Positions 687 through 63,261 of a stretch of 64,000 nucleotides of DNA are shown here, one piece after another; position 1 is the stretch's first letter; every line of letters starts with the position of its first letter. Origin of the DNA: Sugiyamaella lignohabitans (taxonomy: Eukaryota > Ascomycota > Dipodascomycetes > Dipodascales > Trichomonascaceae); NCBI RefSeq assembly GCF_001640025.1, contig NC_031672.1, positions 1,798,001 to 1,862,000 on the forward strand, written 5' to 3'. A program made the translations under genes and the position numbers. The notes below the pieces were generated by a model that saw nothing but the letters and a program-made list of their open reading frames with translations, had not been told where the DNA came from and searched no databases.

Positions 687-824
687 TGCCTCCGGCGGCT
701 GGGGCTCCGCCCCAGACCCCGTGGCTCCTGCTTCGCAGGAGATGGCTGGGACTGTCGACGGAACGACTCGAGCGTAGCGAGAGGAGCAGTGGGGTCTGGG
801 GCTGCGCCCCAGCCGCCGGAGGCA
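687..824. repeat. GC palindrome 1 (complete, 138 bp)
   Basis: The left arm at 687-742 starts TGCCTCCGG and ends in the perfect hairpin CTCCTGC-TTC-GCAGGAG. The right arm at 764-824 is the inverse type, starting CGACTCGAG and ending GGAGGCA. The element sits between convergent MRPL10 and the cyclophilin gene and stops 4 nt from the cyclophilin stop codon. Confidence 0.95.
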
Positions 825-828
825 CCAT

Positions 829-2352
829 CTACCACCCGGCGAAGCTGCTGTTGGCGATGTTGGTTTTGACCCGCTTTCTGCGGGACTCGTCATCGTTTGG
901 AGTGGGTGCGGCACCGGTTGCTGGTGCTCTTTTGAGATATTTGCCGATGACAGGTGAACCGTCAGCGGTTAGAGATTTCTTTTGGAGCCAGGGAGTGTCG
1001 TCGAGGTCGTCGGATGGCTGTTTGGTCTCGGTTGGTTTCTGGTCTTCGTCGTAGAGACCCTTGGCAAAGGGGTCGACGAGAATTTTGACCGAGTCCATGG
1101 TTATTGTGCGTGTTGGAACGTCGTTGGTGGTGACAGGAACTCTTTCGAGGTCGTCGAGAACACTAAGTCCTCCAACTACTTTTCCGAATACAGTGTGCTT
1201 GCCGTCGAGATGAGGAGTTCGACGGTACGTGATGAAGAATTGTGAGGTGTTTGTGTTTTTGCCTTTGTTGGCCATGGACAGTATTCCTCGCTCGTCATGT
1301 TTGAGTGGGGTGTTTGTTTCGTCGGCAAACGGTTTGCCCTCAGGAAAGGCACTACGGCCTCCACTGCCGGTTCCAGTAGGGTCACCGGTTTGAATCATGA
1401 AATGCTTGATGTTTCTGTGGAATTTAATTCCATTATAGTATCCTTGTTTAGCAAGTTCCACAAAGTTGTAGACCGCTTTAGGTGAGTACTTGGGATACAA
1501 CTCTATGTTGAGAGTTCCTAAGGATGTCTCAATGCTGGCATACCCAGGTTCCAGAAACTTTTTTTGTTTGAGAAGCTTTTCAATGGGTATGTCAGTGAAC
1601 GTGGATTTTGTCGAGGGATCCATTGCAGTCGATGTCAACGAACTGGCCATGTGATGTGTAGTCAGCATACTATGTGGTTTACTCGTAGTGATGACTTTGT
1701 TTGTGATACGAGAAGTCGAAGGTTCACTTGTTTTTAGGATTGATCCATTTCCTTTGACATTGGAAGTTGATTTCCTATCAGATGGAGCTGCTGATTTAGC
1801 TGCTGATTGTCCGTTGGGCTGTTGATTGGCCTTGGTTGAGATACCTACTCCTCCTTGAAGCCTGATGATATCGGCCTTTGTGAAGTCTTCATCGCTTACA
1901 AGATCCTTCATATACTTGGCTTGAATGTTGTGTTCCTTTACAGTATCTTCGAAATACACTCTGCCACTTGGTTTTATTAGCACAACCTTACTCAATGTCT
2001 GGAATTCCTTGAAACTCATAGGATCAATGTACTTTCCCTCATTGTTAACCTCGATACGCAGTTTGATCAGATCTTTGTTTGTCATTTTTTCACCAGTCAC
2101 AGGATTCACACCATTCTTCCTGATATATGGCAGAATATTTCTCACATCATAAACATTGCCATGAATATCAGCCATTCCAGCATCTTTCTGAATCGGCTGT
2201 TGACTGATGCTACATGTCCAAAAAGGAAGAGCACTGACTGTACGAGCAACAGCAGTAGTCAGCCCTGAACCTGACTTCCCAGAGCTTCCAGAAAACCCTC
2301 CTGAAGACCACTCAGAGTGTGTTATATATAATTTATCAGTATTCTTGCCCAT
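829..2352 (-). CDS. cyp8: U-box cyclophilin, PPIL2/Cyp8 family
   Basis: This 507-residue protein joins a U-box domain (about residues 40-110, beginning LPFWTCSISQQPI) to a C-terminal cyclophilin domain (about 273-430). Family members are spliceosome-associated peptidyl-prolyl isomerases with ubiquitin-ligase potential. The cyclophilin part shows the substrate-binding motifs KFHRN and SQFFIT; the position of the CypA Trp holds His (TPHLDGKH), as this subfamily often departs from Trp there. The start is an ATG at 2352 and the stop is TAG at 829. A Ser/Thr-rich linker separates the domains. S. cerevisiae has no orthologue, while fission yeast and animals do. The gene converges on MRPL10. Confidence 0.92.
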   Translation of the reverse strand: MGKNTDKLYITHSEWSSGGFSGSSGKSGSGLTTAVARTVSALPFWTCSISQQPIQKDAGMADIHGNVYDVRNILPYIRKNGVNPVTGEKMTNKDLIKLRIEVNNEGKYIDPMSFKEFQTLSKVVLIKPSGRVYFEDTVKEHNIQAKYMKDLVSDEDFTKADIIRLQGGVGISTKANQQPNGQSAAKSAAPSDRKSTSNVKGNGSILKTSEPSTSRITNKVITTSKPHSMLTTHHMASSLTSTAMDPSTKSTFTDIPIEKLLKQKKFLEPGYASIETSLGTLNIELYPKYSPKAVYNFVELAKQGYYNGIKFHRNIKHFMIQTGDPTGTGSGGRSAFPEGKPFADETNTPLKHDERGILSMANKGKNTNTSQFFITYRRTPHLDGKHTVFGKVVGGLSVLDDLERVPVTTNDVPTRTITMDSVKILVDPFAKGLYDEDQKPTETKQPSDDLDDTPWLQKKSLTADGSPVIGKYLKRAPATGAAPTPNDDESRRKRVKTNIANSSFAGW

Positions 2353-2858
2353 AGTTATACTAATAATGGAGAAGGTGGAATGTCAAGCGGCTTCCAGTAA
2401 ATTTTCAGCCGTCCGTCTGGGTGCATCTCTGAAGATAAGATAAGATAATGCAGGGTTAATTCTCAGGGGTCGGAGTGAAACTTTACACATAAATACCTTC
2501 AAGTATTACAATAGGATCCTGTCAGTAGACTTGTTTATCTTTAAGATTAAAATTATCTGTATTTGGAACTGAATCAAACAAATTGCTTGTATCACATTGC
2601 AGCTACTTAAAGAGCTCTATCTGTAGGCTGATTAGTGAACATAGTAGCAGTTCCCAAAATACAGAACCTGAAAACCTTTATCACGGCAGCGAATTCAGCT
2701 CTTGGCTTCTTTGAACACTACCTCTACAAATTTAATTGATTGAATTGCTTTATTTTATATTTCAGAGGGTTCTTTCAACGGCAGGAGCCGCGAGTAGCGA
2801 CCATATCGAGCCGTACATTGGCCCTTCACGAACTTTAGGACTCTCGACAATCCCAAGA

Positions 2859-3148
2859 CTCCTGCGAAGCAGGAGCCACGGGGTCTCGGGCGGATGTAGT
2901 AATACCTAGTAAACCTCCCTAGTCTTACATTGATGCGCCCCACATAGTGAGGCTCTCCTTTATATCTGACCTTCCGTCCTATTCTTATGACTCCTCATAT
3001 AGAACTTTAATAAACACACGATGTATAGGCTACTATACTAAGTCTAATATCCTCGACTCCTATCCTTGCAGATCTAAATCTCGTGCTAGAACGACAGTGA
3101 TCCCTCTGGAGACTTAGGGTGACTACACCGGAGCCCCAGCCGCCGGCG
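2859..3148 (-). repeat. GC palindrome 2 (single decayed arm, split by an insertion)
   Basis: Bases 2859-2894 contain the arm from CTCCTGCGAAGCAGGAG through GGGTCTCGGGCGGA. Bases 3133-3148 continue the same arm with GCCCCAGCCGCCGGCG. Removing 2895-3132 rejoins the two halves at the hairpin apex GGGCGGA/GCCCC, so this is one copy with an insertion. Confidence 0.75.
2895..3127. mobile_element. Solo-LTR-like insertion (233 bp)
   Basis: The insert begins TGTAGT and ends ACTACA, a perfect 6-bp inverted terminus with the TG...CA ends of LTRs. It is flanked by GCGGA on the left (2890-2894) and CCGGA on the right (3128-3132), which fits a 5-bp target duplication with one mismatch. It contains AATAAA-like sequence (TTTAATAAAC). 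No internal coding region is present, so it resembles a solo LTR left after recombination. Confidence 0.6.
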
Positions 3149-9243: not shown

Positions 9244-9303
9244 GACTCCAGCGGAGCGAGAGTAGCAGTGGGGTCTGGGGCAAAGCCCCAGCCGCCAGAG
9301 GCA
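9244..9303 (-). repeat. GC palindrome 3 (single arm)
   Basis: The arm runs from GACTCCAGCGGAGCGAG to GCCGCCAGAGGCA, with slight decay. The hairpin CTGGGGC-AAA-GCCCCAG is intact. Confidence 0.9.
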
Positions 9304-12752: not shown

Positions 12753-12940
12753 TGCCTCCGGCGGCTGGGGCTTCGCCCCAGACCCCGCTGCTCCTCTCGC
12801 TCCGCTCGAGTCGTGCTTACGGGGTGTCAATAACTGATCACTCTGAACAGATATAAAAAGAACCTTGGGGCCCGACAACCGACTCGAGCGGAGCGAGAGG
12901 AGCAGCGGGGTCTGGGGCGGAGCCCCAGCCGCCGGAGGCA
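12753..12940. repeat. GC palindrome 4 (paired arms, 188 bp)
   Basis: A forward 61-bp arm (12753-12813) and a reverse 61-bp arm (12880-12940) lie around a 66-bp spacer. Both end in the GAGTCG type. The element fills the gap between convergent NTO1 (stop 12699) and FAD1 (stop 12978). Confidence 0.95.
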
Positions 12941-18849: not shown

Positions 18850-19053
18850 GCCTCCGGCGGCTGGGGCTCCGCCCCAGACCCCAATGCTCCTCTCGCTCCG
18901 CTCGAGTCGGGTGTCGGGAGCAGGCAATTCGCGGTCAGAACTCCCCAGCACCATCCAAACCGTCTCCCCAAACAAACCCCGTCCCAGACGCCCGACTCGA
19001 GCGAAGCGAGAGGAGCAGCGGGGTCTGGGGCGGAGCCCCAGCCGCCGGAGGCA
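18850..19053. repeat. GC palindrome 5 (paired arms, 204 bp)
   Basis: The forward arm is 18850-18909 (first T missing) and the reverse arm 18993-19053. The inner flanks are also partly palindromic (GGGTGTCGGG versus CAGACGCCC). The copy lies 62 bp upstream of the tRNA gene. Confidence 0.95.
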
Positions 19054-19115
19054 TCGCCACGACTACAATTGGACCCTGAATAAAGGCCGATTTGGCGGTG
19101 GCTAGCATCCAACGA

Positions 19116-19199
19116 GGTTTCATAGTGTAGCTGGTTATCACTGCGGTCTCTGAAACATTCAAGAAATCCGCCGACCCGAGTTCGAATCTCGGTGAGACC
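19116..19199 (+). tRNA. tQ(CUG): tRNA-Gln(CUG) with a 12-nt intron
   Basis: The 84-nt gene folds as a tRNA. Acceptor arms are GGTTTCA/TGAGACC, the D arm is GTGTAGCTGGTTATCAC, and the T arm is CCGAG-TTCGAAT-CTCGG. The anticodon loop CTCTGA places CTG at 19150-19152, matching the CTCTGAA loop of yeast tRNA-Gln(CUG). A 12-nt intron (19154-19165) sits at the usual 37/38 position. The anticodon stem GCGGT/TCCGC has a T:T mismatch next to the loop. The mature length is 72 nt. The internal A box (TAGTGTAGCTGG) and B box (AGTTCGAATCT) are present. Confidence 0.9.
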
Positions 19200-19200
19200 T

Positions 19201-19206
19201 TTTTTG
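19201..19206 (+). terminator. Pol III terminator of tRNA-Gln
   Basis: Six T residues follow the tRNA 3' end by one base, the standard RNA polymerase III stop. Confidence 0.85.
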
Positions 19207-19290: not shown

Positions 19291-19351
19291 TGCCTCCGGC
19301 GGCTGGGGCTCCGCCCCAGACCCCGCTGCTCCTCTCGCTTCGCTCGAGTCG
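19291..19351 (+). repeat. GC palindrome 6 (single 61-bp arm)
   Basis: This intact forward arm runs from TGCCTCCGG to GAGTCG. It ends 37 bp from the TFC6 stop codon, in the 3' flank, and lies downstream of the tRNA gene. Confidence 0.95.
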
Positions 19352-22057: not shown

Positions 22058-23529
22058 TCAATAGCGAGGAAAATCTGTGTCGATTTGCAGACTCCAAGAG
22101 TTGAGGCCGCCAATAATGTCTTTCACATCCTTCACATTATACTTCTTCTTGATGAGCTCTACTCCACCCTGCGAATCATTGCCATACCGACATACCACAT
22201 ATACAGGTTCCTTGATATCAGAATCAGTGAGATCAACAGTTCCAGCCTTGAGCTCCAAGTATGGAGCGTCTAAACAGCGTTAGTATCCCAGTACCACGAC
22301 CCGACGTTTCGACTCGAGCGCAGCGAGAGGAGCAGTGGGGTCTGGGGCGAAGCCCCAGCCGCCGGAGGCAGCATCACCAACTTACTAATCGATCCCGGTA
22401 ACGAACAGATATCAAATTGAGACGATTCACGGACGTCTATCAGAGTGTGTGGCATGTCCCGTTCTTTTGAATATGTCTCGACAGTCACTCTCTCTTCTGG
22501 TTTCAGATACACCTGACTGGCTCGACCACAGAACTCTTCGTAAGAGTACTCGCCAAACTCTATTCCCTGCCGAGTTATCGAGGGATTCGATCCACAAACC
22601 GCACAAGTGTCCTTTTTGCCTCTCATCCTGATATATCTCCACTGAGGAGCCGAGTAAGCGCTGAACAGCGTCATCGAGGGAGTGTATTTGCTGAACTCGT
22701 ACGCACCAGTTATCACCTTAATAGCTTCAATAGACTGTAAAACGCCCATAATTCCCACCACAGGGCCCAAAATTCCACCATCGCCACAAGACAAGACGCT
22801 ATCTGGAGGAGGTGGGATGGGAAACAGGCATCGGTAGCATGGTCCTGACAGGTAGTTCAAAACCAGCAGCTGACCCTCGGTCTTCAGAGCAGATGCTGAA
22901 ACTAATGGGATATTCAGCAGAACTGCAGTGTCGTTAATAAGATACCGGGTCGAAGGTGTATCAGTACAATCCAAAACAAGATCATACCCCGTGAAAATGT
23001 CAAACGCATTATCTCCAGTCAACCGAGTTTTATATGTAACAGTGTTTACTTTAGGATTCAGGTCCCGAATAAATTTCGCAGCCGAATGGCATTTCGGCCA
23101 GTCGACTCGTGGTGTGTTGTGAATAATCTGTCTTTGTAAATTTGACGACTCGACAGTATCATCGTCCACGATACCGATGGTGCCAACACCAGCTCCTGCT
23201 AAATAAGCCAGTGCAGAACTTCCCAGACCACCAGCGCCAACTACTAGGATTTTGGCTTTTTTGAGTCGCAGCTGTCCTCTGAGTCCTATTTCTGGTACTA
23301 TCAGCTGTCGTCCATAGCGTAAATACTCGTCCAACTCCAGTTTTGTGTTATCAACATCGCCAGACCCCCTGGATCCACTCTCAGACCTATTCTCTGTGAT
23401 CTCAGAAAATCCTATTGTATCAGCCTTATCATCGCCAAAATTCTGCCTCTTTAAACTGGCATTCTCTATCCGCAGTCTCTCGACCTCTTTCCGCAGCTCT
23501 TCCAACTCCCGATCGCTATCGGAAGCCAT
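22058..23529 (-). CDS. UBA4: Ubiquitin-like protein activator Uba4 (MOCS3 family)
   Basis: Uba4 adenylates and thiocarboxylates Urm1 for tRNA wobble-uridine thiolation and urmylation. Exon 1 is 23529-22386 and exon 2 is 22269-22058, giving 451 residues. The E1-like domain has the ATP loop GAGGLGSSALAYLAGAG, DDDTVESSNLQRQ, zinc-binding CYRC and CAVC pairs, and the catalytic cysteine in VLSCGDGG. The rhodanese domain is split by the intron: LPGSI in exon 1 continues as NAPYLELKAG in exon 2, which holds the active-site VCRYGNDSQ. The intron (116 bp) starts GTAAGT, ends ATACTAACGCTGTTTAG and contains GC palindrome 7. I chose the ATG at 23529; an in-frame GTG lies just upstream. Confidence 0.95.
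22310..22370 (-). repeat. GC palindrome 7 (single arm, inside the UBA4 intron)
   Basis: This intact 61-bp arm makes up over half of the 116-bp intron. Without it the intron would be 55 bp, close to the shortest intron in the window (59 bp in the LSD1-like gene). Confidence 0.95.
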
Positions 23530-23664: not shown

Positions 23665-23718
23665 TGCCTCCGGCGGCTGGGGCGCTGCCCCAGACCCCGT
23701 TGTGCTCGCTTCGCGAGC
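23665..23718 (+). repeat. GC palindrome 8 (single arm, third end type)
   Basis: The arm starts TGCCTCCGG and ends in the perfect hairpin GCTCGC-TTC-GCGAGC, an end type shared only with palindrome 21. The central hairpin loop differs (GGGGC-GCT-GCCCC) but its stem is intact. It lies 136 bp upstream of the UBA4 start. Confidence 0.92.
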
Positions 23719-24731: not shown

Positions 24732-24792
24732 CGACTCGAGCGAAGCGAGAGGAGCTACGGGGTCTGGGGCAGAGCCCCAGCCGCCGGAGGCA
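24732..24792 (-). repeat. GC palindrome 9 (single arm)
   Basis: This intact 61-bp reverse arm, CGACTCGAG to GGAGGCA, lies in the GH30 upstream region. Confidence 0.95.
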
Positions 24793-26695: not shown

Positions 26696-26874
26696 TGCCT
26701 CCGGCGGCTGGGGCTTCGCCCCAGACCCCGTTGCTCCTCTCGCTTCGCTCGAGTCGGGCGTGGGGATTCCCCACTGGCTGCTTTCTCTCAAAATAGACCC
26801 CCATCCCGACGCCCGACTCGAGCGAAGCGAGAGGAGCAGCGGGGTCTGGGGCGCAGCCCCAGCCGCTGGAGGCA
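26696..26874. repeat. GC palindrome 10 (paired arms, 179 bp)
   Basis: The forward arm is 26696-26756 and the reverse arm 26814-26874. Inner flanks GGGCGT and ACGCCC extend the palindrome. It lies between convergent GH30 (45 bp from stop) and the p24 gene (31 bp from stop). Confidence 0.95.
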
Positions 26875-26905: not shown

Positions 26906-28006
26906 CTAAACTAATTTTTGTTTCATGAAGAAACCACGGAGGTGGTTCAGTTGCCAGGCACAGGTGATGCCGAGGACAAACAGTTGGATGAACGTCCAGC
27001 GCACCACACGGGCATTAGTCGACTCACTCTGGTCTCTAAAACTGGCCTCGCGGTCTCTCATGAGCGACTGTTCACGGCGGACAAGAACGAGTTTCTGGTT
27101 CAAGTTACGAACACGCTCGGCCAGGCTGCTGATCTTGTGCTCGTTTCTGCTGTCGAAAGTCTGGCCCTCGCCAACAGCGAAATCAATGTCCATCTTCACC
27201 TTCTTCTGGTGGTACCACGATCCCGATAGGGCTCGGTAGCAGATTCGGTGCTCGCCGCTGTCGGCAGCAGTGAAAATGAAGTCTCCTTGGGCATTCAGTT
27301 TCTGGAACAGCACTCGGTGGTCGTTATCAAATGTCTCCTACAGACTGTGTTAGTACTGGGATGGGGGAACATGCCTCCGGCGGCTGGGGCTCTGCCCCAG
27401 ACCCCGTGGCTCCTCTCGCTTCGCTCGAGTCGGTAACGTCGGTGTCTCGGTGTCTCCAGAGGTTTTTAAACCTATTTTTCCGGATTGTAGGACTGGGAAA
27501 GCACTGGCTGGAGCGAACGTGAGAAGAACTAAGTGGTCTGGGTCTTGGTCTGACCGCAAGAGAGGGTGTAGGTTCAACATACTTCAATAGAGATTTGAAT
27601 GGCAAGAGAGTCGGATCTGACCCAGTTGTTGGTAGCTTCTTCTAATTCCCATGCACTGTGTTTAGCTGTTCACTGTTAGTCAACTGTAAAATGTGGGATG
27701 TGTTTTTTAAATCAATAGATTCTAAATTCTGGATATGAATTGTCATGAACTTAGTACCACTGAATGGCCCATGGCCGCGACAGAGTCCACATTTTTGATC
27801 CAGAGATAGAATAAAATCATTGGAATACGATTGGGTACCTGAAACCGTATGTCTGTCGTTTACTCACCTGCTAGAATCGTGGTTTGCTGTAAATCCTGGT
27901 AGAAACACTTTTGCTTGTCACCGTCTCCCAGGTAGAAATGCAGGGCCGAGACATGGCTCATGAGAACCGCCAGGAGCGCAATGAACCCAATTTTGTTCAC
28001 AAACAT
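26906..28006 (-). CDS. ERP1: p24 family cargo receptor, Erp1-like
   Basis: p24 proteins cycle between ER and Golgi in COPII/COPI vesicles and select cargo. Exons are 28006-27868, 27665-27583 and 27337-26906, giving 217 residues. Introns start GTGAGT and GTATGT, with branch sites GACTAACAG and TACTAACACAG. The protein has a signal peptide (MFVNKIGFIALLAVLMSHVSA), a GOLD domain (LHFYLGDGDKQKCFYQDL to GEHRICY), a coiled coil, one membrane span (FIQLFVLGITCAWQ) and a short tail FFMKQKLV with the di-aromatic COPII and basic sorting signals. The phrase ETFDNDHRVLFQKL fits the alpha (Erp1/5/6) subfamily. Intron 2 (245 bp) contains GC palindrome 11. Confidence 0.9.
27372..27432 (+). repeat. GC palindrome 11 (single arm, inside ERP1 intron 2)
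   Basis: This intact 61-bp arm lies in the intron antisense to the host gene, on the opposite orientation from the UBA4 case. Confidence 0.95.
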
Positions 28007-28364: not shown

Positions 28365-28502
28365 TGCCTCCGGCGGCTGGGGCTCTGCCCCAGACCCCGT
28401 TGCTCCTCTCGCTGTGCTCGAGTCGTTGCATGGGGACCCCTCGTTATCTCCTGCGAAGCAGGAGCTACGGGGTCTGGGGCGGAGCCCCAGCCGCCGGAGG
28501 CA
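28365..28502. repeat. GC palindrome 12 (complete, 138 bp)
   Basis: The left arm ends in the GAGTCG type and the right arm in the GCGAAGCAGGAG type. The flanks add CGGGTC on the left and GACCCG on the right, extending the palindrome after one unpaired base on each side. It lies 78 bp from the NSA1 stop. Confidence 0.95.
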
Positions 28503-33300: not shown

Positions 33301-33361
33301 TGCCTCCGGCGGCTGGGGCTCCGCCCCAGACCCCATGGCTCCTCTCGCTTCGCTCGAGTCG
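33301..33361 (+). repeat. GC palindrome 13 (single arm)
   Basis: This intact 61-bp arm begins 37 bp after the PRP21 stop codon, between convergent PRP21 and SGT2. Confidence 0.95.
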
Positions 33362-35077: not shown

Positions 35078-35828
35078 CCTGTAATTTCTATATTCTGTAT
35101 GGATGGAAGGATAAATAACTTGCCAAGTTTTCAAAACGCAGATGTGGTCTATTTTATAGGCACATGCACTTTCCCCCTACCATGCTTCTCAACTGTTCTA
35201 TTTGATTGGAGTTTAGGGTTTTCCCATCTCTAGTGGCTCTTCACCCCGCAACTTGCATACTCAGGGGGATCAACCTGTAGTCCTGGCGGGGTCTATGAGG
35301 GGGGTCTTGGTGGGGCTCCAAGCGGAGGGGTATTCTCTCGAACCAGGGGTAAATTATTTTTTGATGGGTGTTTGCCTCCGGTGGCTGGGGCGTTGCCTCA
35401 GACTTCTTTGCTCTTCTCGCTTCGTTCAACTCGGTCGTAAAAGATTATTCGCTTACCCGAGGTAGTCGTATTAATCTCCCTCTGCTATCAACCCAAACAT
35501 AACCCATTTTCTTTCTCTTTATAGATAGTTATATAAGTGTGTGTTTGGACTTCAAATTCTGATTCTCTTACTTTCGTGAAGGGGATTAAACAGCATTTTT
35601 TTGTTAAATTTCTATTTTTTTTTTGGTACCATTTACATATTCTTCAGATTCTCGCTTTGTGATGCTAAACTGACACTCGCATAATTAGCTACTGGTCACT
35701 GAAAAGACTTCAATTGATTTCCAAAACTTTTTGCTTTCACGAGAAGGGAAATAACAAATATCAGAACAAAAGAAAATGACTATTAGTGAATATTGGATAA
35801 AGAATAAAAGATATAAATAAAATAAAAA
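35078..35828. other. Intergenic region between SGT2 promoter and fasciclin gene 3' end
   Basis: It contains one decayed GC palindrome arm (35373-35433). No gene is seen. Confidence 0.4.
35373..35433 (+). repeat. GC palindrome 14 (single decayed arm)
   Basis: The arm still has the 61-bp length (TGCCTCCGGTGGCTGGGGC to CAACTCG) but carries many C-to-T type changes, and one hairpin pair is broken (GGGGC versus GCCTC). It looks like the oldest copy here. Confidence 0.8.
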
Positions 35829-44114: not shown

Positions 44115-44867
44115 CTACCACTCGATAGGGGTCTTATCATAGTTGTAGAATTTACCATTATCCTCCTTGGTCAATCCATCAGCAAGCTTTGCAATGGCAT
44201 TGGCACTTTCTTCAGTACTGATCAAAATACTGTTGAAGAACTTTCCAATATCAGGGTTTGTCTTGTTCACGACCTCCACAAGTCCGTTGCCAAGATCACT
44301 GGCAACCAAACCAGGGTGGAAAGGAACGATAATGAAGTCCTGGGAGGCCAACTCAACGCTAAGTTCCTTGGCAGTGTAGTTGAGAGCAGCTTTGGATTGA
44401 CCATAGGCATTGCTGCTAACAGGAATGTAACTACCTTTGGATCCAAGGGCAGTACTAGTGAACAAGACCTTACGAGTAGAACGCTTCAGCAACAATGGAT
44501 AAAACGCATTGAAAAGAAGAATAGGACCAAGCGTATTAAGTTGATAGAGACTAAGCCAGTTGGCGGTAGGGGTTTCAACTACAGGTCCAAGCGTTTCTCC
44601 AGCTCCAGAATTGGCAATCAAAACATCAACACCATCGGAAATCTTAGAGACCTCTCTTGCAAGCTCCGCAGCATCAGTTTCTACGGTAGCATCATATTTG
44701 AAAACGTGAACATTGCTGTGTGATTTGACCCAATTTTGCAACTCTGTAGCTTGATCGGGCTTTCTGGCAGTGGTGATAACAATATTGGTAGGGACAGAGG
44801 AGAGCTTCTTGACTACTGCAAGACCAATACCCCTATTACCACCGGAAATAACATAGACTGTAGACAT
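44115..44867 (-). CDS. Short-chain dehydrogenase/reductase, paralogue B
   Basis: This close paralogue of the gene at 42.4 kb keeps SGGNRGIGLAVVKKLSS, the catalytic YGQSK and the C-terminal NGKFYNYDKTPIEW. From the ATG at 44867 it has 250 residues. The frame extends to another ATG at 44945, adding 26 residues (MPSFSSAIKSVFRRNTRN...) that look like a mitochondrial presequence. I prefer 44867 because the TATA box (44965-44971) and the shared CCGCGG block lie at the same distance from it as in paralogue A (104 versus 97 bp; 262 versus 259 bp). The longer form could still be made from upstream transcripts. Confidence 0.88.
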   Translation of the reverse strand: MSTVYVISGGNRGIGLAVVKKLSSVPTNIVITTARKPDQATELQNWVKSHSNVHVFKYDATVETDAAELAREVSKISDGVDVLIANSGAGETLGPVVETPTANWLSLYQLNTLGPILLFNAFYPLLLKRSTRKVLFTSTALGSKGSYIPVSSNAYGQSKAALNYTAKELSVELASQDFIIVPFHPGLVASDLGNGLVEVVNKTNPDIGKFFNSILISTEESANAIAKLADGLTKEDNGKFYNYDKTPIEW

Positions 44868-45589
44868 AGTAGATGGAAGCTTAGATGAAATGTTTCTAGT
44901 GTTTCTTCGAAAGACGCTTTTAATTGCTGATGAGAATGAAGGCATTTCAGGAAGTTTGCTGAGTATTTATAGTTAATCTTCGTGGAAAAGTTTATAGAGT
45001 AATAGAATTGATCACAAATACAACTGCAAAGCCGGGGTATTTAATAATCAATAAATTTCGCCAAAATATGACAAACTTTGTTCATAGGGCCCTGGGTTTC
45101 TTTTCTTTTTGCTTAAAGTTGCATGCGCCCGCGGTGATGCACGGCTCTTTGCACTATGAAAATAAACAAACGAGTTCGTAGATAGTGTTTTGTGGTTACG
45201 TTCGAAAGATTACGAGATACTTGTCAAGCGTGAGATTGATGACGTCCAATCTTGCCACTCTTAGTCAGATAGGGCAGTGTTTTGGATTAGTAAGTAATTT
45301 TTTGATAAATTAATAATCTGATAGCAAAATTCGATGAAGTAGTTTTTAATTTCGATATTTTAGCTACGCTACAAAAAACTTCGTATCCGCGGAGATGAAA
45401 ACATATCAAATCATGATCAGGTAAGCAAAACGCCCCCGTCTTAGAAGCTCTCAACTTGGGGCCAACTGGGGTCAAACTAATTCCCCCAGGCTTGACATGC
45501 GAGTCCAAACTCAATAGTTCAAGTAGTAAACATGTTTAAAATATAATAATAAATTAAATAATGCAAATTATAAATTAGTCGTTAAATCA
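44868..45589. promoter_or_regulatory. Promoter region of SDR paralogue B
   Basis: On the minus strand, the TATAAAT box is at 44965-44971. The block shared with paralogue A is at 45110-45147 (CTTAAAGTTGCAT, CCGCGG at 45129, ACGGCT). A TCCGCGGA palindrome lies at 45386-45393. No gene is seen between here and the RRN3 stop. Confidence 0.55.
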
Positions 45590-49097: not shown

Positions 49098-49158
49098 CGA
49101 CTCGAGCGTAGCGAGAGGAGCCACAGGGTCTGGGACGGAGTCCCAGCCGCCGGAGGCA
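49098..49158 (-). repeat. GC palindrome 15 (single arm with a compensatory stem change)
   Basis: The 61-bp arm ends 2 nt from the Gemin2 stop codon. Its hairpin is CTGGGAC-GGA-GTCCCAG where other copies have CTGGGGC/GCCCCAG: both sides of the same pair have changed, keeping the stem. Confidence 0.95.
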
Positions 49159-50198: not shown

Positions 50199-50867
50199 AG
50201 AATTTCTGTTTAACCTCAATTCTCCAACATGCCAAACCTGCCGATCTCAAGTCACTTCACACATCACGTGACCCAGACCCTGGGGTGGTTCATTGCCTCC
50301 GGCGGCTGGGGCTCCGCCCCAGACCCTGGTTGCTCCTGCTTCGCAGGAGATCCTGTAACCGGCGACGAAACGACTCGAGCGAAGCGAGAGGAGCCGGGGG
50401 GTCTGGGGCGCAGCCCCAGCCGCCGGAGGCAGCGCCCGACCCCCTAACCAGAACCGGAACCCCCCGAGCCCTTCTCCGTGGACCCTGGAAGCCCCCGGTA
50501 TCAGTAGACTCCCGTTTGGAGGAGTTTGGAGGGTGAAAGGGTTCGAGAGATGGATCCCTGCAGGGTGCGGCCCCTGAAAGGGATTGGCCAACGGTTTAAA
50601 CGTGCAGCATGCACGGCTGCCACTCTTAATTGTTCTGTGAAAAAAAGTTTAAATATCGCATGCTTGGAGGGGGTGATTTTTTTTTTTTTCTTTTCTTTCC
50701 GCAAGTTCACAACTTTTTTCGCATTTTCAGTTTGGATCACAGAAAGACCACTTTGGTGATTTTGGGTCTTTTTGTCGCACGAAAAATCCCCGTTGTAGAC
50801 TATCTTAAAATACTTGCTGCCAGATCATTTACCAGTGCCAGAATCACTTTGCCAGAGCTTGAAATTC
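50199..50867. other. Divergent promoter region of BRR1 and the SLC35F-type gene
   Basis: It contains GC palindrome 16 (50294-50431), a T tract (50679-50698) and GC-rich sequence. No gene is seen. Confidence 0.45.
50294..50431. repeat. GC palindrome 16 (complete, 138 bp)
   Basis: The left arm ends in CTCCTGCTTCGCAGGAG; the right arm (from 50371) is the CGACTCGAG type. It is the only complete copy between divergent genes. Confidence 0.95.
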
Positions 50868-52117: not shown

Positions 52118-52255
52118 TGCCTCCGGCGGCTGGGGCTCCGCCCCAGACCCCGCTGCTCCTCTCGCTGCGCTCGAGTCGGTTCGTCTAGGTCCCGACCATC
52201 TCCTGCGAAGCAGGAGCAACCAGGGTCTGGGGCGGAGCCCCAGCCGCCGGAGGCA
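52118..52255. repeat. GC palindrome 17 (complete, 138 bp)
   Basis: Forward arm of the GAGTCG type and reverse arm of the CTCCTGCGAAGCAGGAG type. It lies between convergent genes, 56 bp from the transporter stop and 16 bp from the NNR1 stop. Confidence 0.95.
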
Positions 52256-52271: not shown

Positions 52272-53227
52272 TTACAGTTTTTCCACGGGAGTGAGCTCCA
52301 CGATCTGGTCGAGTCCTTTGTACGCTGGCACGTCGAAGCCGTATTTTTCGGCGAATTTCTTGTCGATGAAGCGGCCGCCAACGAAGTGTCGGCCCGTGAA
52401 GAAGCGTGAGCATGGTTTGGGTGCCGTGAGACTGATGAGATTGTCCGGGTGGAACTTGATTTCGGGGTTCGGACCGTTGTCGACGTCCCAGGAGGACGGG
52501 ATATCGACGCTGGTGACGGGGATTTTCGATTGGATCATGAGCTCGATGGCGGCGGGAAACGGGTCTCGTACAGGCGGTTTGAACGAGAACCCGAACAGAG
52601 CGTCTACAACGTGATCCTGTTTCGGGTATACTTTATCCACATCTTCGACAAATGGGATATCGAGATTCTTTAATTGAGTTTCCAATCGACTGAACAGCTC
52701 GCCTTTCGACTTCTTCGGTTGCCAGACCGTGAGGTTATATCCCAGCAGATGCAGATGACGCGCTGCTACCAGTCCGTCTCCTCCTGATCTCGTTAGTATC
52801 ACACCTCTCCACACCAAATTAACGGTGTTTCCGAGTTCATTAACCCATAAACCGTCTCAAAACTTACCGTTATTGCCAGGACCAACCAAAACCAGCACAT
52901 TTGGGCCCTTCTCGAGTGGATGCGCTCTATACACAGCCTGAGCTACCGACAGTCCTGCCAGCTCCATCAGCTGGTCAATCGAGAACCCGCCCGACGACAT
53001 CAGCTCCTTATCCACTGCAGCAGCCAATTCGGCACTGAGAGTCTACTTTGTTAGGGGAATTCGGGGGAATTGGGTCTGCCTCCGGCGGCTGGGGCTCCGC
53101 CCCAGACCCCGCTGCTCCTCTCGCTGCGCTCGAGTCGGGCGTCGGGGGTTGCCAGGGGCGCAAATTTCGGGGGTGGGGCTGCTACGGGGGCAGGGAGGAG
53201 GGTACTCACTCGCACGACTGAGTTCAT
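52272..53227 (-). CDS. NNR1: NAD(P)HX epimerase
   Basis: The enzyme interconverts R and S forms of damaged, hydrated NAD(P)H so that the dehydratase can repair it. Three exons: 53227-53210 (only 18 nt, MNSVVR), 53042-52868 and 52783-52272, giving 234 residues (S. cerevisiae YNL200C has 246). Motifs: [38 protein letters not shown] split by intron 2 within the Asn-Asn-Gly-Gly-Asp loop, [24 protein letters not shown] and [10 protein letters not shown]. Intron 1 (167 bp) starts GTGAGT and contains GC palindrome 18; intron 2 (84 bp) ends GATACTAACGAGATCAG. Intron 1 has a CCTAACAAAGTAG end. Confidence 0.93.
53077..53137 (+). repeat. GC palindrome 18 (single arm, inside NNR1 intron 1)
   Basis: This intact 61-bp arm lies 35 bp from the 3' splice site of intron 1, antisense to the host gene. 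Confidence 0.95.
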
Positions 53228-53453
53228 TTTGCGTTTTGTGTGAATGGGATCAAGTGAAGTTGTGGTCTGATGTCAGTTGCAGTTTGCTATATATTTATGC
53301 ACCGTTCAATTTAACCAAATAGGCTGCCAAAAGATAAGATAACCCACGCCGCCGATCCACATCAATCTCGGAGATCTAACTCCGAAACCACCCTTTTCCC
53401 CTGAAAATCCAAACTTCCACCCACACAACCAACAGTCGCGACCGCCCACGCAA
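53228..53453. other. Intergenic region upstream of NNR1
   Basis: A short promoter region with no other feature seen. With GC palindrome 19 it fills the gap to the next gene. Confidence 0.4.
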
Positions 53454-53514
53454 CGACTCGAGCGCAGCGAGAGGAGCCGGGGGGTCTGGGGCGCAGCCCC
53501 AGCCGCCGGAGGCA
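53454..53514 (-). repeat. GC palindrome 19 (single arm)
   Basis: This intact 61-bp arm lies 56 bp from the stop codon of the oxidoreductase gene, in its 3' flank. Confidence 0.95.
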
Positions 53515-55104: not shown

Positions 55105-55165
55105 TGCCTCCGGCGGCTGGGGCTCCGCCCCAGACCCCGTGGCTCCTCTCGCTGCGCTCGAGTCG
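55105..55165 (+). repeat. GC palindrome 20, left arm
   Basis: An intact 61-bp forward arm. The opposing arm lies 477 bp away at 55643, so this may be a pair stretched by an insertion or two separate singles. Confidence 0.95.
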
Positions 55166-55642
55166 GGTATGGGGTGACGGGCTGGCGTTGGGAGGGGTGG
55201 ATGGCGTGGTTTGTGGGTAGTGGGAGAAGGAGAGACTGGGGAGACTGGGAAACGGTCAGGGTGGGGGTGATGTGCCCCCAATATGGGTTGAATCTTATAA
55301 CAATCGTAGTGAATAACCAGAATAATTATAATTGGCGGTTATTGCCGCCATCCCAGCATAGGTATGGTCCTTCTCTTTTGCTTGTTACGCAGCTGCTATG
55401 TCTCGGATGATGAATTGGCTGAGAATATTATGTGTACGATGACCCCCTCAGATCCATATGACCCCCACGCGGAGATTAGAGCGGAGTTTTTTTCCCACCT
55501 CGTTCACACACCCAGCAATACACGCTCATTATCACCACCAATTTCCACACCAAACAGCTACTGAGTGCCCCCCTCAACCACACTCTCCACCCCCAACACC
55601 CCGAACACCACCGACCCCCCAGCCAGCCCACACCCCCAAGCC

Positions 55643-55703
55643 CGACTCGAGCGAAGCGAGAGGAGCCACGGGGTCTGGGGCAGAGCCCCAGCCGCCGGAG
55701 GCA
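55643..55703 (-). repeat. GC palindrome 20, right arm
   Basis: An intact 61-bp reverse arm facing the arm at 55105. Confidence 0.95.
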
Positions 55704-56828: not shown

Positions 56829-56864
56829 TAAATTGCATTTCCTGGACACTGACGGCTGGGACGT

Positions 56865-57090
56865 GCCTCCGGCGGCTGGGCTCCGCCCAGACCTGGTTGT
56901 GCTCGCTTCGCGAGCTTTGTCGCGTGCCCACTGCTGTGGGGTAGGCCTGCCGACAGTTGGGGACCGCCCCCAAACCATCTCAACTGAACCGTGAGTGTAC
57001 TCTGAACCCCCGGACAGAGCTCCTGGACACCCCGCGCCGCTCGCGAAGCGAGCACAACCAGGTCTGGGCGGAGCCCAGCCGCCGGAGGCA
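56865..57090. repeat. GC palindrome 21 (paired arms, third end type, short stem)
   Basis: Arms at 56865-56916 and 57039-57090 end in the hairpin GCTCGC-TTC-GCGAGC. In both arms the central stem is one pair shorter (CTGGGC-TCC-GCCCAG), a matched change on both sides. Confidence 0.95.
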
Positions 57091-57212: not shown

Positions 57213-58819
57213 ATGATTTCGGCAATAATTGTGTATAATCAGAAGGGCGAGGTGCTGATATCGCGGCTGTACCGCGACGGGCTTCGACGGACTATCGCGG
57301 ATGTGTTCCGGATCCAGGTCATATCCAATCCAGAGGTACGTGGCATTTGTCGCGGAGTCACCGGTTGACGGGAGGAAGACTGCCTCCGGCGGCTGGGGCT
57401 CTGCCCCAGACCCCGTGGCTCCTGCTTCGCAGGAGTTGTTTGGGGAGTTGGGTAGAATGGGGTATTGGGATTCTAACTCTGGGACAGGCAAAGTCTCCGG
57501 TGCTGACGCTGGGGTCGACTTCGTTTTTGCATGTTAAACATGAGAACTTGTACATTGTAGGCATCACTCGGTCGAATGTCGATGCAGGTCTGGTTTTCGA
57601 GTTTCTTTATAAATTTGTTGCATTGGGGACGAGCTATTTCAATAAGTTCGATGAAAATGCTGTGAAGAACAATTTCACTCTGATTTATGAGCTTTTAGAC
57701 GAGATCATTGACTTTGGTTATCCTCAGAATACTGAAACTGATACCTTGAAACAGTATATTACAACAGAAGGCATCAAATCTGTTAATTCGTCGAGTAGTG
57801 CTGATTCTAAGATTACTATGCAAGCTACTGGAGCTATTTCGTGGAGAAGACCCGATATCAAGTATAGGAAGAACGAGGTGTTTGTGGATGTTTATGAAGA
57901 TGTCAATTTGCTATTAAGTGCATCAGGTGCTATTTTGAAAGCTGATGTTAATGGCCATATTCAATTGAAAACTCAATTGTCAGGCTTACCAGAGTGTAAA
58001 TTTGGTCTTAATGACAGTCTGCTGCTGGATACTGGTGCGGATGATGACGATTATTATGGATTGGATAACAGTGACAGCAGTAGTTCTAGTAATTCGGGTG
58101 GTGGTGGAAGTAGACTGTCTAGAAGAGGCAGTAGAATCGGTTCTTTTGGTAATGGAGGTAGTAGTAATGGATCGAGTGGCAGTAATGGCAGTAGTGCCTT
58201 GTCGAATCGATCTACTAGTGGCCGAGCAGCTGCTGGGTCAGTTACTTTGGAAGACTGTCAATTCCACCAGTGTGTTAAACTGGGTTCGTTTGACGAGAAC
58301 AGAATTATATCATTTATTCCTCCTGATGGAGAATTTGAACTTATGAGATACAGAGCAGTTGAGAATATCAATCTGCCCTTCAAACTAGTACCTCAAGTGA
58401 CAGAAATCGGTCAGACAAAGGTCGAATACGAAATTGTCGTCAAAGCCAATTTTGGATCAAAACTCTATGCCACTGACGTGGTCATCAAAATCCCCACTCC
58501 CTTGAACACTGCATCCACATCGCAATCATGCTCTAACGGCCGAGTCAAGTACGACCCATCTGAAAACCAGCTCGTATGGCGCATCAACCGATTCACCGGC
58601 GGCAATGAGTGTTCACTGACTGCTCAAGTCGAGCTCACCCCGACCACCAATCGCAAGCCCTGGTCACGGCCTCCCATCTCCATGGACTTCTCGCTCAACA
58701 TGTTCACCAGCTCGGGCATCGTCGTGCGATACCTCAAGATATTTGAGAAATCTAACTACACTACCCTCAAGTGGGTCCGATATATAGTTCGGGCCGGGTC
58801 TTACGAGATCCGGTTCTAA
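57213..58819 (+). CDS. APM4: AP-2 clathrin adaptor mu subunit
   Basis: The mu subunit binds tyrosine-based sorting signals in endocytosis. Exon 1 is 57213-57335 (MISAIIVYNQKGEVLISRLY to QVISNPE) and exon 2 is 57488-58819, giving 484 residues. The 152-bp intron starts GTACGT, ends TTCTAACTCTGGGACAG and contains GC palindrome 22. The longin-like N-domain continues SPVLTLGSTSFLHVKHENLY; the mu-homology domain starts near GAISWRRPDIKYRKNEVFVD and ends EKSNYTTLKWVRYIVRAGSY. A Ser/Gly-rich insert of about 50 residues (near 265-320) interrupts the homology domain. The opening and the ISRLYRDGL block favour AP-2 over AP-1. Confidence 0.93.
57381..57435 (+). repeat. GC palindrome 22 (single arm, inside the APM4 intron)
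   Basis: This forward arm of the CTCCTGCTTCGCAGGAG type occupies the middle of the intron, sense to the host gene. Confidence 0.95.
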
Positions 58820-58845: not shown

Positions 58846-58960
58846 TGCCTCCGGCGGCTGGGGCTCCGCCCCAGACCCCGTTGCTCCTCTCGCTGCGCTC
58901 GAGTCGTAGCGTGGAGGGCCCTCGCAATCTCTTGCGAAGCAGGAGCCACGGGGACTGGGA
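58846..58960. repeat. GC palindrome 23 (truncated)
   Basis: The left arm (58846-58906) is intact. The right arm starts normally (TCTCTTGCGAAGCAGGAG) but stops at about 58960 after GGGGACTGGGA, where the dispersed repeat with GATCAGCTGGAGACCC begins. It lies 26 bp after the APM4 stop. Confidence 0.9.
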
Positions 58961-59070
58961 CGCGATCAGCTGGAGACCCTACTTCGTTATATTATTCGAG
59001 ATATTTATTCTGGACAGCTTATTGAGTGATCCAATTCATACTGTCCTCTGGAATTACTGATATCAAGGTC
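58961..59070 (+). repeat. Dispersed repeat, central block (third copy)
   Basis: This segment matches the tandem duplication at 5013-5507: GATCAGCTGGAGACCCTACT, CTGGACAGCTTATTGAGTGA and ATTACTGATATCAA. It abuts the truncated GC palindrome 23. Confidence 0.8.
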
Positions 59071-59085
59071 GACTCAACTTTATCA

Positions 59086-59350: not shown

Positions 59351-59357
59351 ATCAACA

Positions 59358-60706: not shown

Positions 60707-60874
60707 CAACAGGAGTCGCTGCAGACTTCTCTTCCTCTTCTTCTTTTCTCTTCGTCTATTCGAACAATTCTGCCTGCTAAGTCTGCACACCAGTATTGTT
60801 TTAAGATCTTTTTAACCAGCGTTTTTCAACTCGATTATTCTTTTATTTTATTACTGCCTGTTTTTATTTACAAA

Positions 60875-62422
60875 ATGGGCAGTTTCGGTCAACTTGATTC
60901 CACCTTTCGCTTCCCTCTTGAGCAGGGTTAGCTTGAGTCTAAAAGACCGGTTCGCAAGTTTCCTCGTCGCCCTGTTTTGAATGACGTTCGCCGTCCTGGT
61001 TCTGGCACTTATTATGGTAACTTGGGTGAGATAGAGAATCGTCGTCCTGCTAGACGTTCTGCTTTTGCTTACCACAAGACTATTCAATTTCCTATTGGTT
61101 ATGACTTTTCCGCTGAATCAAGCAAGCCCCTCACAGTATCTACCCAGGTTGTCGAAGATGATGAAGAGACTGATTGTGAAGAGCTTTTGTTGAACTTTGC
61201 TCCTGATGATTATTCCGCGTCTAAAGACTCTAAAGGCTTCCTTTGTGGTGAGGTGCCCACTTTGCTTCCTGACGATCCATTTTTTACTGGCATCCCTGAT
61301 TGTGCTAAAGAAGACGATGACGCTTATTTAAACCGTGTGTTTATTAATGCCTCTGACGACATTGAAACTATTAATTCTATGAATGCTCCTGATGCCCCTA
61401 TTGCTTCAGTTGAGCTAGAGCTCGAATGTGCTCTTACCCGGGTCGACAAAACTTTCGAGAACTTGGGAATTATTATTGAAGAGATATTGTTTGATATGCC
61501 AGAGAAAGTATCCAAAATGGCTTCTTTTAAATCCAAGTTGGCATTTGGCAAACGCCCCTCTATTTCTGGATCCACTCTATTTACTGGAATCCTTACTGGT
61601 CTTTGTGCCAACCCTCCATTGTATGCTCCTGGGGTACCTCATTCTTCCGTCTATGAAGTTAAGAAGTACCAACTTCAGAGTGGTGCCATTCTTGGAGTTC
61701 ATTCGCCCGTTGTTTACAATCAAATCCGGGCCGTCTGTGGAGTTGACCACGACGAATTGATGAGTTCATTTGATTTACAGTCTTTGGATGCTGCTATTAC
61801 CGAGAGAACTGGCTCCGAATTTGTTACTACTGATGGAAAATTCAATATTAAGACGCTCAAGCGCAAGGAGTACCAGATGATCTCTGATTTTAAGTTTCTC
61901 GATGACTACTACACCCATGTCAGAGACTTATTGACACGACTTCCTCCCTACCTGGGACACTACACTATTTGGGAGAATGGAAAGGAAACACATTTTGTTG
62001 TCACGAAAAGTTTAGTTGACAAGAACAATGACACTTTGTTCAAACTCAGGGCATCGACTGATGGCGACCTTAATGGATTCCCTCGTGTGGTTATCAAGGA
62101 TCTCAATCGCCTTAATGACAAGTATTTTCATTTGCCAGAGAATGTGCGAGAGCATATCGTTGGTCAGGTTCGTGGTGATGCCAAGATGTTGAAGAGACAC
62201 AATATTCTAGATTATTCATTACTGGTTGGGCTTGAGTGTGACCCTCTTACTGGTGAAGAAAGATCCTCAGTTGGCCTTAGTATTGCCCTCTGCCCCTCTA
62301 GTCGGGTCAAGAGAGTGGTTGGTAGTATCAGATCACTAATTTCTGGACACTCCACTTTCAAGGATCTTCGCCAGTTTGCCTCGGTCAATGGACCGAGCAG
62401 ACCTGTGGTCACACGCTGTTGA
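60875..62422 (+). CDS. Divergent PIP-kinase-like protein with an in-frame amber codon
   Basis: The frame from ATG at 60875 (MGSFGQLDSTFRFPLEQG) meets TAG at 60929-60931, then stays open for 496 codons to TGA at 62422. There is no further in-frame ATG until about 61379. The C-terminal half (about residues 310-460) resembles the N-lobe and early C-lobe of phosphatidylinositol phosphate kinases: GKFNIKTLKRKEYQMI with the ATP-site Lys, FLDDYYTHVRDLL, an altered FDLKGS-type site (LFKLRAS) and LKRHNILDYSLLVGL with the catalytic Asp. The later IID motif and activation loop are missing, so kinase activity is doubtful. It may be a readthrough gene, a pseudogene or mis-started. The promoter looks active. 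Confidence 0.6.
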
Positions 62423-63123
62423 GTTCATTCTTTCAATATTTGCGGTCAGCTGGTCAGTTTAGCATTATCCAAGGCACCCAATGCCTTGTTTGTCATTTCA
62501 TTTCTTTATGGTACTATTGGATTGGTAGTCACTTTGATTTCCTTTCGGATTTGCGATTTCGGTCGAGGTCATCCCGAGTCCCGGCTATTTCGCACGTCAT
62601 TCATTGGTTCACAGGCTCCTTGTCTTGCAATTCGCTCATCGTCCCTTGTTGTTCACTACATCAGTCGCCTCGCACACCGCGAGCAGACGACGATTTAGAC
62701 CGTTAGACTATTGTAGACCTGGCTCCTTGCCAGTTTACTCCTGGAGATTCTTGATCCTTCCAATTGCGGCGCTTCCTTAGCGACATTTTGGAACTGGAGT
62801 CAAGGCTCAAATTTCTATGGACGGACGATAAGCAGAACAGACATTGAGCCCTTGGTGTTGACACTGGCACCTGATCAATGAACTTTGAATAGTACCCCTT
62901 ACAATGACATGGCATTATCCAACATTCTACACTTACTGGTGGTAACCGCACTCGAGATTGATTGAACTTGACAGCCCATTTTTTATTTTATTTTTATGAT
63001 TGTGATGACTTTGTATGAATTTGGAGTTTGGGTTTATTGTAATTATGTCTATGTTAATAATTAATATTAATTTTTGTCTTACTTTCTGCCTCACCATAAT
63101 ATCAAGGTGCTCAGACCCCTCCC
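62423..63123. other. Intergenic region, no gene seen
   Basis: No relic of the missing PIP-kinase C-terminus is visible in the three forward frames. The region near 62970-63080 is very AT-rich. Confidence 0.45.
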
Positions 63124-63261
63124 TGCCATCGGCGGCAGGGGCTTCGCCCCAGACCCCACTGCTCCTCTCGCTGCGCTCGAGTCGTTGCGTTGAGGGTCCT
63201 CGCGTTATCCTGCGAAGCAGGAGCTACGGGGTCTGGGGCAGAGCCCCGGCCGCCGGAGGCA
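63124..63261. repeat. GC palindrome 24 (complete, 138 bp, slightly diverged)
   Basis: The left arm starts TGCCATCGGCGGCAGGGGC (changed at the outer hairpin) and ends GAGTCG; the right arm is the GCGAAGCAGGAG type. It lies 40 bp from the LETM1-like stop, between convergent genes. Confidence 0.93.

Follow-up and report, generated by a model that had tools for sequence, protein, structure and literature searches.

The DNA analysed here is a 64,000-nucleotide stretch of a nuclear chromosome (hereafter the window; G000:C1:1798001-1862000) of Sugiyamaella lignohabitans, a yeast of the family Trichomonascaceae that is associated with wood. The genes of the window are nuclear and follow the standard genetic code, and an Rfam scan returned one tRNA only. 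Scattered among the genes is a short, GC-rich palindromic element, of which the unit consists of two inverted arms of approximately 61 bp, each bearing hairpins. A first-pass annotation of the window had counted 24 loci with a shared arm start and proposed a search of the whole genome. The exact opening 19-mer of the arm, TGCCTCCGGCGGCTGGGGC, indeed occurs 24 times in the window (14 on the forward and 10 on the reverse strand), and the genome-wide search yields 5,342 exact occurrences across the two strands (2,675 + 2,667) in 15,932,016 bases (15.93 Mb) in four contigs. The reversed pattern, used as a control, gives 0 matches against these 5,342, and a chance repeat is therefore ruled out. This is a real and extreme repeat family that is ordinary neither as a miniature inverted-repeat transposable element (MITE) nor as a repetitive extragenic palindrome (REP), and its counterpart in bacteria is unexpected. 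The placement behind stop codons, a G-run outside both ends, the bacterial relatives and an arm inside a presumed intron go beyond what the first-pass annotation described. For comparison, a review credits the species with 16.0 Mb, four chromosomes, 6,820 genes and introns in approximately 5% of the genes (PMC5499181).

Anatomy, length and copies of the element

Read from the outside inwards, an arm starts with the terminal block TGCCTCCGGCGGC, continues with a first hairpin (CTGGGGC-loop-GCCCCAG) and the block GACCCC, and closes with a second hairpin. A complete element joins one L arm, with CTCCTGC-TTC-GCAGGAG as its second hairpin, to one R arm (CTCCTCTCGCTNCGCTCGAGTCG). Rarer second hairpins are GCTCGC-TTC-GCGAGC, CTCCGC-TTC-GCGGAG, CTCTCGC-TTC-GCGAGAG and similar forms, with perfect stems despite the different letters; the variety among hairpins lies mostly between such whole types. 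The first stem is perfect in 189 of the 208 distinct arms, and its loop takes 13 forms. An alignment of oriented complete copies covers 61 of 68 pairs and includes best-match copies (seven pairs were omitted, either because the L hairpin was not found or because they duplicate another). Conservation in this alignment amounts to 95-100% in the stems, 69% in the first loop, 46% in the R loop and 43-98% in the middle. Among 99 otherwise exact R hairpins, the loop base is G in 42, T in 31, A in 17 and C in 9, while the same position in L hairpins is T in 70 out of 70. The idea that the R-loop base evolved independently as part of a GNA-type DNA minihairpin was dropped as not general, the base being free in R arms but T in all 70 L arms. 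As a whole, the complete element is predicted to fold into a single stem of approximately 40 pairs (z about -15 relative to shuffles).

The first-pass annotation had described a complete form of exactly 138 bp. All five copies that it listed are present, and a sixth copy of this length has a decayed right end (Table 1). To estimate lengths, an unselected set consisting of the window and C1:400001-600000 (264 kb) was used. Sets that contain loci L002-L030 are biased toward well-kept copies because these loci are the best matches of a search with the first copy as query; the unselected set is free of this bias. That search scored 40 near-complete copies with 93-100% identity, a figure that counts the candidates scored and not the true number. 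According to a profile search with the arm model, the window holds 35 arms and C1:400001-600000 another 91, which together form 34 pairs, if one decayed end is allowed, and 58 other arms. The lengths of the 32 intact facing pairs are 138 bp (n = 12), 139 bp (n = 10), 137 bp (n = 4) and 136 bp (n = 2), with one pair each of 132, 140, 147 and 148 bp. The length of 138 bp thus stands as the mode (12 of 32) but not as a rule: 29 of the 32 pairs measure 136-140 bp, over a full range of 132-148 bp. The remainder of the arms comprises R-R pairs of 132-599 bp and single arms, and single or irregularly spaced arms are common. Two of the nine arms previously listed as single, at 53077 and 53454 (ending at 53514), in fact face each other over 438 bp.

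Table 1. Element copies, arm pairs and single arms in the window (positions relative to the first base of the window).
Feature	Position	Strand	Remarks
Complete element, L arm first	687..824	+	138 bp; between convergent gene 3' ends (618 and 829)
Complete element, R arm first on +	28365..28502	-	138 bp; 79 bp behind stop 28581 (- strand gene)
Complete element, L first	50294..50431	+	138 bp
Complete element, R first on +	52118..52255	-	138 bp; 57 bp behind stop 52061
Element with decayed right terminus	58846..58983	-	138 bp; 27 bp behind stop 58819
Complete element, R first on +	63124..63261	-	138 bp; 41 bp behind stop 63302 (- strand open reading frame)
Facing R-R pair	12753..12940	.	188 bp; 54 bp behind stop 12699
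Facing R-R pair	18850..19053	.	204 bp
Facing R-R pair	26696..26874	.	179 bp; 46 bp behind stop 26650
Facing R-R pair	53077..53514	.	438 bp overall; 57 bp between outer end and stop 53571 (- strand gene)
Facing R-R pair	55105..55703	.	599 bp end to end
Facing pair, third kind of second hairpin (GCTCGC-TTC-GCGAGC), first stem one pair shorter (CTGGGC/GCCCAG)	56864..57090	.	227 bp
L arm fragment without outer end	2858..2894	-	
Single R arm	9245..9303	-	
Single R arm	19291..19351	+	~37 bp from stop 19389 (- strand gene); outer end away from gene
Single R arm in presumed intron 22385..22270 of ThiF/rhodanese (UBA4-like) gene	22310..22370	-	
Single arm, second hairpin GCTCGC-TTC-GCGAGC	23665..23717	+	
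Single R arm	24732..24792	-	
Single R arm	27372..27432	+	
Single R arm	33301..33361	+	38 bp behind stop 33263
Single R arm, diverged	35373..35433	+	
Single R arm, first stem GGGAC/GTCCC (compensated double change)	49098..49158	-	2 bp behind stop 49161 (- strand gene)
Single L arm	57381..57444	+	

The one tRNA of the window is a tRNA-Gln gene (19115-19201, anticodon ctg) situated between the R-R pair at 18850 and the single R arm at 19291. Elsewhere in the genome, partial element copies are clustered, some of them overlapping, at G000:C1:2900766-2901260 and C4:859316-859530.

Placement behind genes and flanking DNA

Genes were called as open reading frames (ORFs) scored by codon pairs, which gives an incomplete set and is no substitute for an annotation; ORFs with a coding score below 40 were omitted from the counts of placement and of GC content at third codon positions (GC3). 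Relative to these genes, the elements concentrate behind the stop codon. Element coverage is 7.5% at 0-50 bp behind the stop, rises to 26% at 50-100 bp, 34% at 100-150 bp and 29% at 150-200 bp, and falls to 14% at 200-300 bp and then to 3-6% (5% at 300-400 bp). Before the start codon it is 0% at 0-50 bp, 1% at 50-100 bp and at most 11% farther out. Accordingly counted per gene, 36 out of 82 have an element within 200 bp on the 3' side versus 12 out of 82 on the 5' side (Fisher P 6e-5). In the 3' regions inspected, AT-rich stretches separate stop and element, so the element often probably sits near the expected cleavage position. Genes with an element behind them have a higher GC3 (0.458, n = 37) than those without (0.393, n = 45; P 2.9e-6). 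Element density also correlates with the GC3 of neighbouring genes in the unselected set (Spearman 0.51, P 9e-7), and it follows GC-richer intergenic DNA as well. There is no clear bias that would speak for or against a strand-specific function: full elements lie R-first in 10 cases and L-first in four, and single arms have their outer end toward the gene in 14 cases and away from it in eight.

Such a sharp peak behind stop codons could mean that the element is a functional 3'-end module, acting in transcription end, as a pause site or as an insulator, with its copies held alike by selection and gene conversion rather than by continuing mobility. The number of copies per kb, highest in convergent intervals (1.36, compared to 0.55 in tandem and 0.61 in divergent ones), fits this explanation too. 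Counted per interval, however, convergent intervals (0.83) hardly exceed tandem ones (0.80) and divergent ones are not poorer (1.14), with the reservation that the gene calls are incomplete. Moreover, 46 out of 82 genes have no element within 200 bp on their 3' side, and there are nearly element-free stretches of tens of kb in which the 3' regions are AT-rich and look normal. A copy inside a presumed intron does not suit a 3'-end module either, and RNA polymerase II is not known to employ hairpins of this kind. On balance, we consider this explanation quite unlikely.

The intron in question was read by eye from the sequence: a presumed 116-nt intron (22270-22385, - strand; GTAAGT..TACTAAC..TTTAG) that consists mostly of one R arm. 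Excising it from the UBA4-like ThiF/rhodanese gene restores the reading LPGSINAPYLEL. Elements may thus contribute to introns in S. lignohabitans.

The first-pass annotation had seen no target-site duplication at complete copies, and this holds for a much larger sample. No consistent duplication was found for lengths of 2-10 and offsets of -12 to +12 among 68 pairs, 66 of which are distinct (two copies were counted twice via the overlapping loci L002 and L009); the maximum is four matches. The flanks do carry another signal. Arms that match only after position 3 of the arm model were dropped from the flank set, by which 212 arms were kept and 201 entered the logo. Outside the ends of these 201 arms and in the direction of the arm, a G-run occupies positions -12 to -4, with a preference for C or G at -1; therefore, the flanks of a unit resemble GGGGnnS|element|SnnCCCC. 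The two flanks of one copy also match each other as inverted repeats better than flanks of different copies do. Over the first four bases of the 32 unselected pairs, the match is 1.78 versus 1.23, with a permutation fraction of 0.0006 of 5,000 (0.0052 over 20 bases). The match is weaker across the 66 distinct pairs, with fractions of 0.0068 (four bases), 0.022 (20 bases) and 0.073 (12 bases). Two explanations are conceivable, of which the first is favoured: short host palindromes may be entered at their centre by the unit, or the flanks represent a poorly kept outer stem of the unit itself.

Probable bacterial relatives of the arm

A scan of viral contigs with the 19-mer gave matches on three contigs, two of which are GC-rich and phage-like and contain facing pairs with GCCCCAGACCCC next to the match. 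In some Acetobacterales and Sphingomonadales, the arm core, GCCTCCGGCGGCTGGGGC-loop-GCCCCAGACCCC, proved to recur between genes as a palindrome of high copy number. The pattern CCTCCGGCGGCTGGGGC-1..9-GCCCCAGACCCC occurs in at least 120 stretches of a prokaryote collection, and among the 80 core stretches listed, all but one have alphaproteobacterial titles. The remaining one belongs to a metagenome-assembled genome (MAG) titled Deltaproteobacteria (L077), in which exactly one bacterial arm is present, by misbinning or as a lone transfer. Isolates among the carriers include Roseococcus sp. SDR (Acetobacterales), Polymorphobacter multimanifer (Sphingomonadales) and P. glacialis. An 18-mer of the core occurs 343, 64, 231, 209, 49, 37, 266, 46, 1, 44, 52, 17 and 10 times in 13 genomes. 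In a 385-genome sample of the class, the sole positive was a carrier already known and the 18-mer was absent from the 384 other genomes. At the first varying position of the stem, 1,368 of the 1,490 copies in 12 carrier genomes have the yeast base T and 122 another base, although these genomes were chosen for T.

This palindrome, which was found here and is unnamed, shares with the yeast element its core, facing pairs, a bias toward gene 3' ends and an outer purine run. It differs in that its stem mostly counts 8 bp, its loops are others, its pairs span 77-128 bp, the run consists of A instead of G, and its copy number is 1-343 per genome. The 127 bacterial loci comprise 62 facing pairs and 96 other arms (158 elements), with ATT often following GACCCC. 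Element coverage reaches 20% at 25-50 bp behind stop codons compared to 2-6% before start codons. The flanks are purine-rich: an A-run of at least four bases lies just outside 85 out of 219 arms versus 2 out of 219 farther out, which the opposite strand reads as a T-run downstream of the hairpin. Bacterial copies might on this pattern act as intrinsic (Rho-independent) terminators, for which a GC hairpin with a T-run behind it is expected at gene ends. The 3'-end explanation would take them for plain intrinsic terminators, and both the A-run and the bias toward gene 3' ends count in its favour.

Because the core served as the search pattern, its exact agreement is no proof in itself: it was built in by the way in which the stretches were selected. 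Not imposed by the search are the existence of the bacterial family, its abundance of hundreds of copies, the facing pairs, the position behind genes and the restriction to few lineages versus 384 genomes without it. The yeast and bacterial repeats could nonetheless be independent, the core being a convergence of stable GC hairpins that are built behind genes from similar blocks. The blocks are partly self-complementary, which leaves at most approximately 23 independent bases, a number that shrinks further once GCCTCCGGCGGC is taken as a near-palindrome. Yeast and bacteria also differ in stem length, loops and inner hairpins. A 30-bp arm match of 93% also occurs once on a Streptomyces plasmid (NZ_CP108097.1:289391-289420; E 9e-3), the sole match in the plasmid collection. 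Against convergence, at least 120 prokaryote stretches match the two-block core at all of its specified bases, albeit as the search criterion, and the predominance of the yeast base T and the absence of the 18-mer from the other genomes of the class point the same way. Of 20 million random arms with the same architecture and composition, the best matched 20 out of 23 independent bases. We regard independence as unlikely, and the arm cores of yeast and bacteria quite probably share a common origin.

Contamination or an assembly artefact has a nearly negligible probability. Several of the bacterial records, like the yeast genome, are drafts or known from one assembly, but no positive point for an artefact was found. 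Thousands of diverged copies occupy their own sites beside different yeast genes, and bacterial copies are also present in the three isolates, with a stem and inner part unlike those of yeast.

Some bacterial copies lie between genes of phage-like or gene-transfer-agent-like clusters (L053:407-1933, L054:11787-11916 and L177). One of these carrier contigs (L053) encodes an HK97-type portal, protease and capsid together with an Rcc01695-family distal tail protein, a gene set that presumably resembles Rhodobacter-type gene transfer agents. Such clusters are a possible vehicle between bacteria. The arm itself has no match in the phage collection.

Proposed mobilisation and relation to known elements

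REP-type palindromes are regarded as prokaryotic and dependent on a captured transposase. A REPIN is described as an inverted doublet with conserved ends, a less conserved spacer and a predicted hairpin, mostly intergenic and of high copy number, with singles as likely remnants (PMC3116915). The yeast element shares with REPINs, REPs and bacterial interspersed mosaic elements (BIMEs) the doublet, the hairpin, the intergenic bias, the high copy number and the single arms as likely remnants. It is unlike a REPIN in residing in a eukaryotic nucleus, in its 5,342 exact arms, in the two hairpins within each arm of approximately 61 bp, and in lacking a REP-associated tyrosine transposase (RAYT) in the yeast as well as in seven carriers. 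Closest to it are REPINs in working, MITEs and Spy among eukaryotic elements, and mitochondrial GC clusters in look. The latter (GC42 and others) are mobile GC-rich palindromes of yeast mitochondria of approximately 42 bp, flanked by AG or ACT direct repeats (PMC4478555). The element resembles them as a GC-rich palindrome in intergenic yeast DNA, but it is nuclear, measures 138 bp and has no direct repeats. The inverted termini argue against a Helitron, for which a Rep/helicase partner, a 3' hairpin and termini without inversion would be expected; PF14214 gave no match in the yeast, although its control was silent, as was that of PF05699, which is equally without a yeast match.

The first-pass annotation had suggested mobilisation as a unit, either like a MITE or by a hairpin-mediated process. 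Mobilisation as a unit fits, since a bounded, near-fixed length recurs at thousands of unrelated sites, equally on both strands. Of the two ideas, neither of them proven, a hairpin-mediated process agrees better with stems that are kept while loops vary. The likeness to MITEs extends to the inverted terminal arms, the short non-coding unit and the many copies. It does not extend to a target-site duplication or to an autonomous partner in the families searched, and the hairpin-built arms and many singles are unlike a MITE as well. As found here, the element lacks features that would place it among the MITEs or the RAYT-driven REPINs.

An autonomous element with the same termini, for which the first-pass annotation had recommended looking, was not found in the families searched; piggyBac, Tc1/mariner DDE_3 and Crypton fell outside this search. 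PF13359 has no match in the yeast (its control was positive in 1 of 14 genomes), nor has PF10551. PF03184 (DDE_1) has two yeast matches, of which one was examined; the second (C1:5904871) lies in a frame near the end of C1. The examined gene (L051:280-2679; C2:1704080-1706479) is a single frame of 799 codons with DDE_1, ABP1-N and Tc5-type helix-turn-helix domains. It was rejected as a partner because it lies beside elements, is not enclosed by facing arms and is ABP1/CENP-B-like.

These results bear on the explanation that the elements are ordinary MITEs, i.e., internal-deletion products of a cut-and-paste transposon of which the DDE transposase has been lost or belongs to a family that was not searched, with a Spy-like lack of duplication. 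Terminal inverted repeats, a fixed length, a high copy number and the absence of coding capacity all agree with it, and a precedent for duplication-free insertion exists: Spy transposons of the PHIS superfamily are described as inserting without duplication into palindromic AAATTT (PMC4482050). The yeast element resembles Spy in being inserted without duplication and in having an apparently palindromic target, but this target is G-run/C-run rather than AAATTT, and PF13359 is not matched. An ordinary MITE would also leave unexplained the bacterial core and the singles that are broken at differing points. Together with the lack of a target-site duplication and the properties of the one DDE_1 gene of the two that was examined, this makes the MITE explanation an unlikely one.

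The reading that we prefer, and consider slightly on the probable side, is that the element is a non-autonomous, mobile hairpin doublet that works in the manner of a REPIN and shares its ancestry with the bacterial palindrome. The doublet would be the copied unit, the whole folding as one long stem and its arms as small hairpins. We infer that the folded single strand would be copied or moved by some factor. Its insertion would occur at the centre of short G-run/C-run host palindromes, leave no target duplication and mostly take place just behind gene ends. These could be favoured because they expose single-stranded DNA or palindromes, or because they tolerate insertions. Single arms may be broken or half-copied units, as has been argued for REPINs (PMC3116915). 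Because the arm core appears homologous to the bacterial repeat, the element or its arm would have passed between bacteria and this yeast lineage, after which its multiplication in the yeast would have outstripped that in every bacterium examined by more than 10-fold. On this comparison, a single kind of tiny mobile DNA may have crossed between domains of life.

A number of observations weigh against this reading. The RAYT-type Y1 transposase (PF01797) has 0 matches in the yeast and occurs in 0 of 7 bacterial carriers (several of which are MAGs), with controls positive in 5 out of 14; the known REPIN engine is therefore missing. Neither a transposition event nor an empty site nor a presence/absence difference came to light. 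Compensated changes inside the first hairpin are few (the arm ending at 49158, and CTGGGC/GCCCAG, where one pair is lost on both sides, in 3 out of 126 arms), and a single arm with its flanks is no more stable than its own shuffles (z 0.27 and -0.60). The arms of doublets have a mutual similarity of 0.900 (n = 68) compared to 0.845 for single arms (n = 58), but 22 of 300 permutations reach this difference, so that the greater likeness of doublet arms expected from REPINs is a tendency only and not significant. Of 92 yeast entries, 36 follow a called stop at a distance of up to 250 bp; the other 56 lie elsewhere or behind genes missed by the incomplete ORF calls. On the bacterial side (190 arms), the first stem mostly counts 8 bp (CTGGGGCC/GGCCCCAG) and the loops have 2-4 bases, as opposed to 7 bp and a 3-base loop in yeast. 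A 33-mer with the yeast loop TCC has 0 matches in the prokaryote collection, and none of the second hairpins of yeast was noticed in the bacterial arms inspected, which were compared by eye only, with no search made.

More tentatively still, one selfish hairpin may inhabit both bacteria and a eukaryotic nucleus with no dedicated transposase. It would have crossed from alphaproteobacteria, which carry it also in gene-transfer-agent-like clusters, to the Sugiyamaella lineage and reached over 5,000 arms there, nearly one for each of the approximately 6,800 genes. Such a hairpin could spread in any host, because its own fold would suffice, given short G/C palindromes at the ends of genes and enzymes of the host, which may be those of replication, repair or the transcription-end machinery. 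We consider this scenario possible but doubtful. If true, such elements can move between domains of life and may multiply with host factors alone. The yeast would then offer a tractable eukaryote for asking what makes palindromes accumulate behind genes, and effects on transcription end, on the conflict between convergent genes and on genome stability could be studied there.

In the literature searched, no description of the family in a yeast was found and the core string was unmatched; the genome paper (10.1093/femsyr/fow037) was outside this search and may mention the repeat. The RepRanger study reports 1,369 REPs in Lichenicola cladoniae, under Alphaproteobacteria, and little similarity of alphaproteobacterial REP motifs to others, and the portion of its text that was searched mentions neither the core nor fungi (PMC12306157).

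The element also matters for genome annotation, as it has been read into predicted proteins of S. lignohabitans. A search for such read-through in proteins of other species gave three matches with E <= 1, all from S. lignohabitans, the 29 candidates being too few to exclude other yeasts. Finally, at 42385-44945 of the window (- strand), with no element between them, lie two adjacent genes with closely similar proteins, apparently a tandem duplication.

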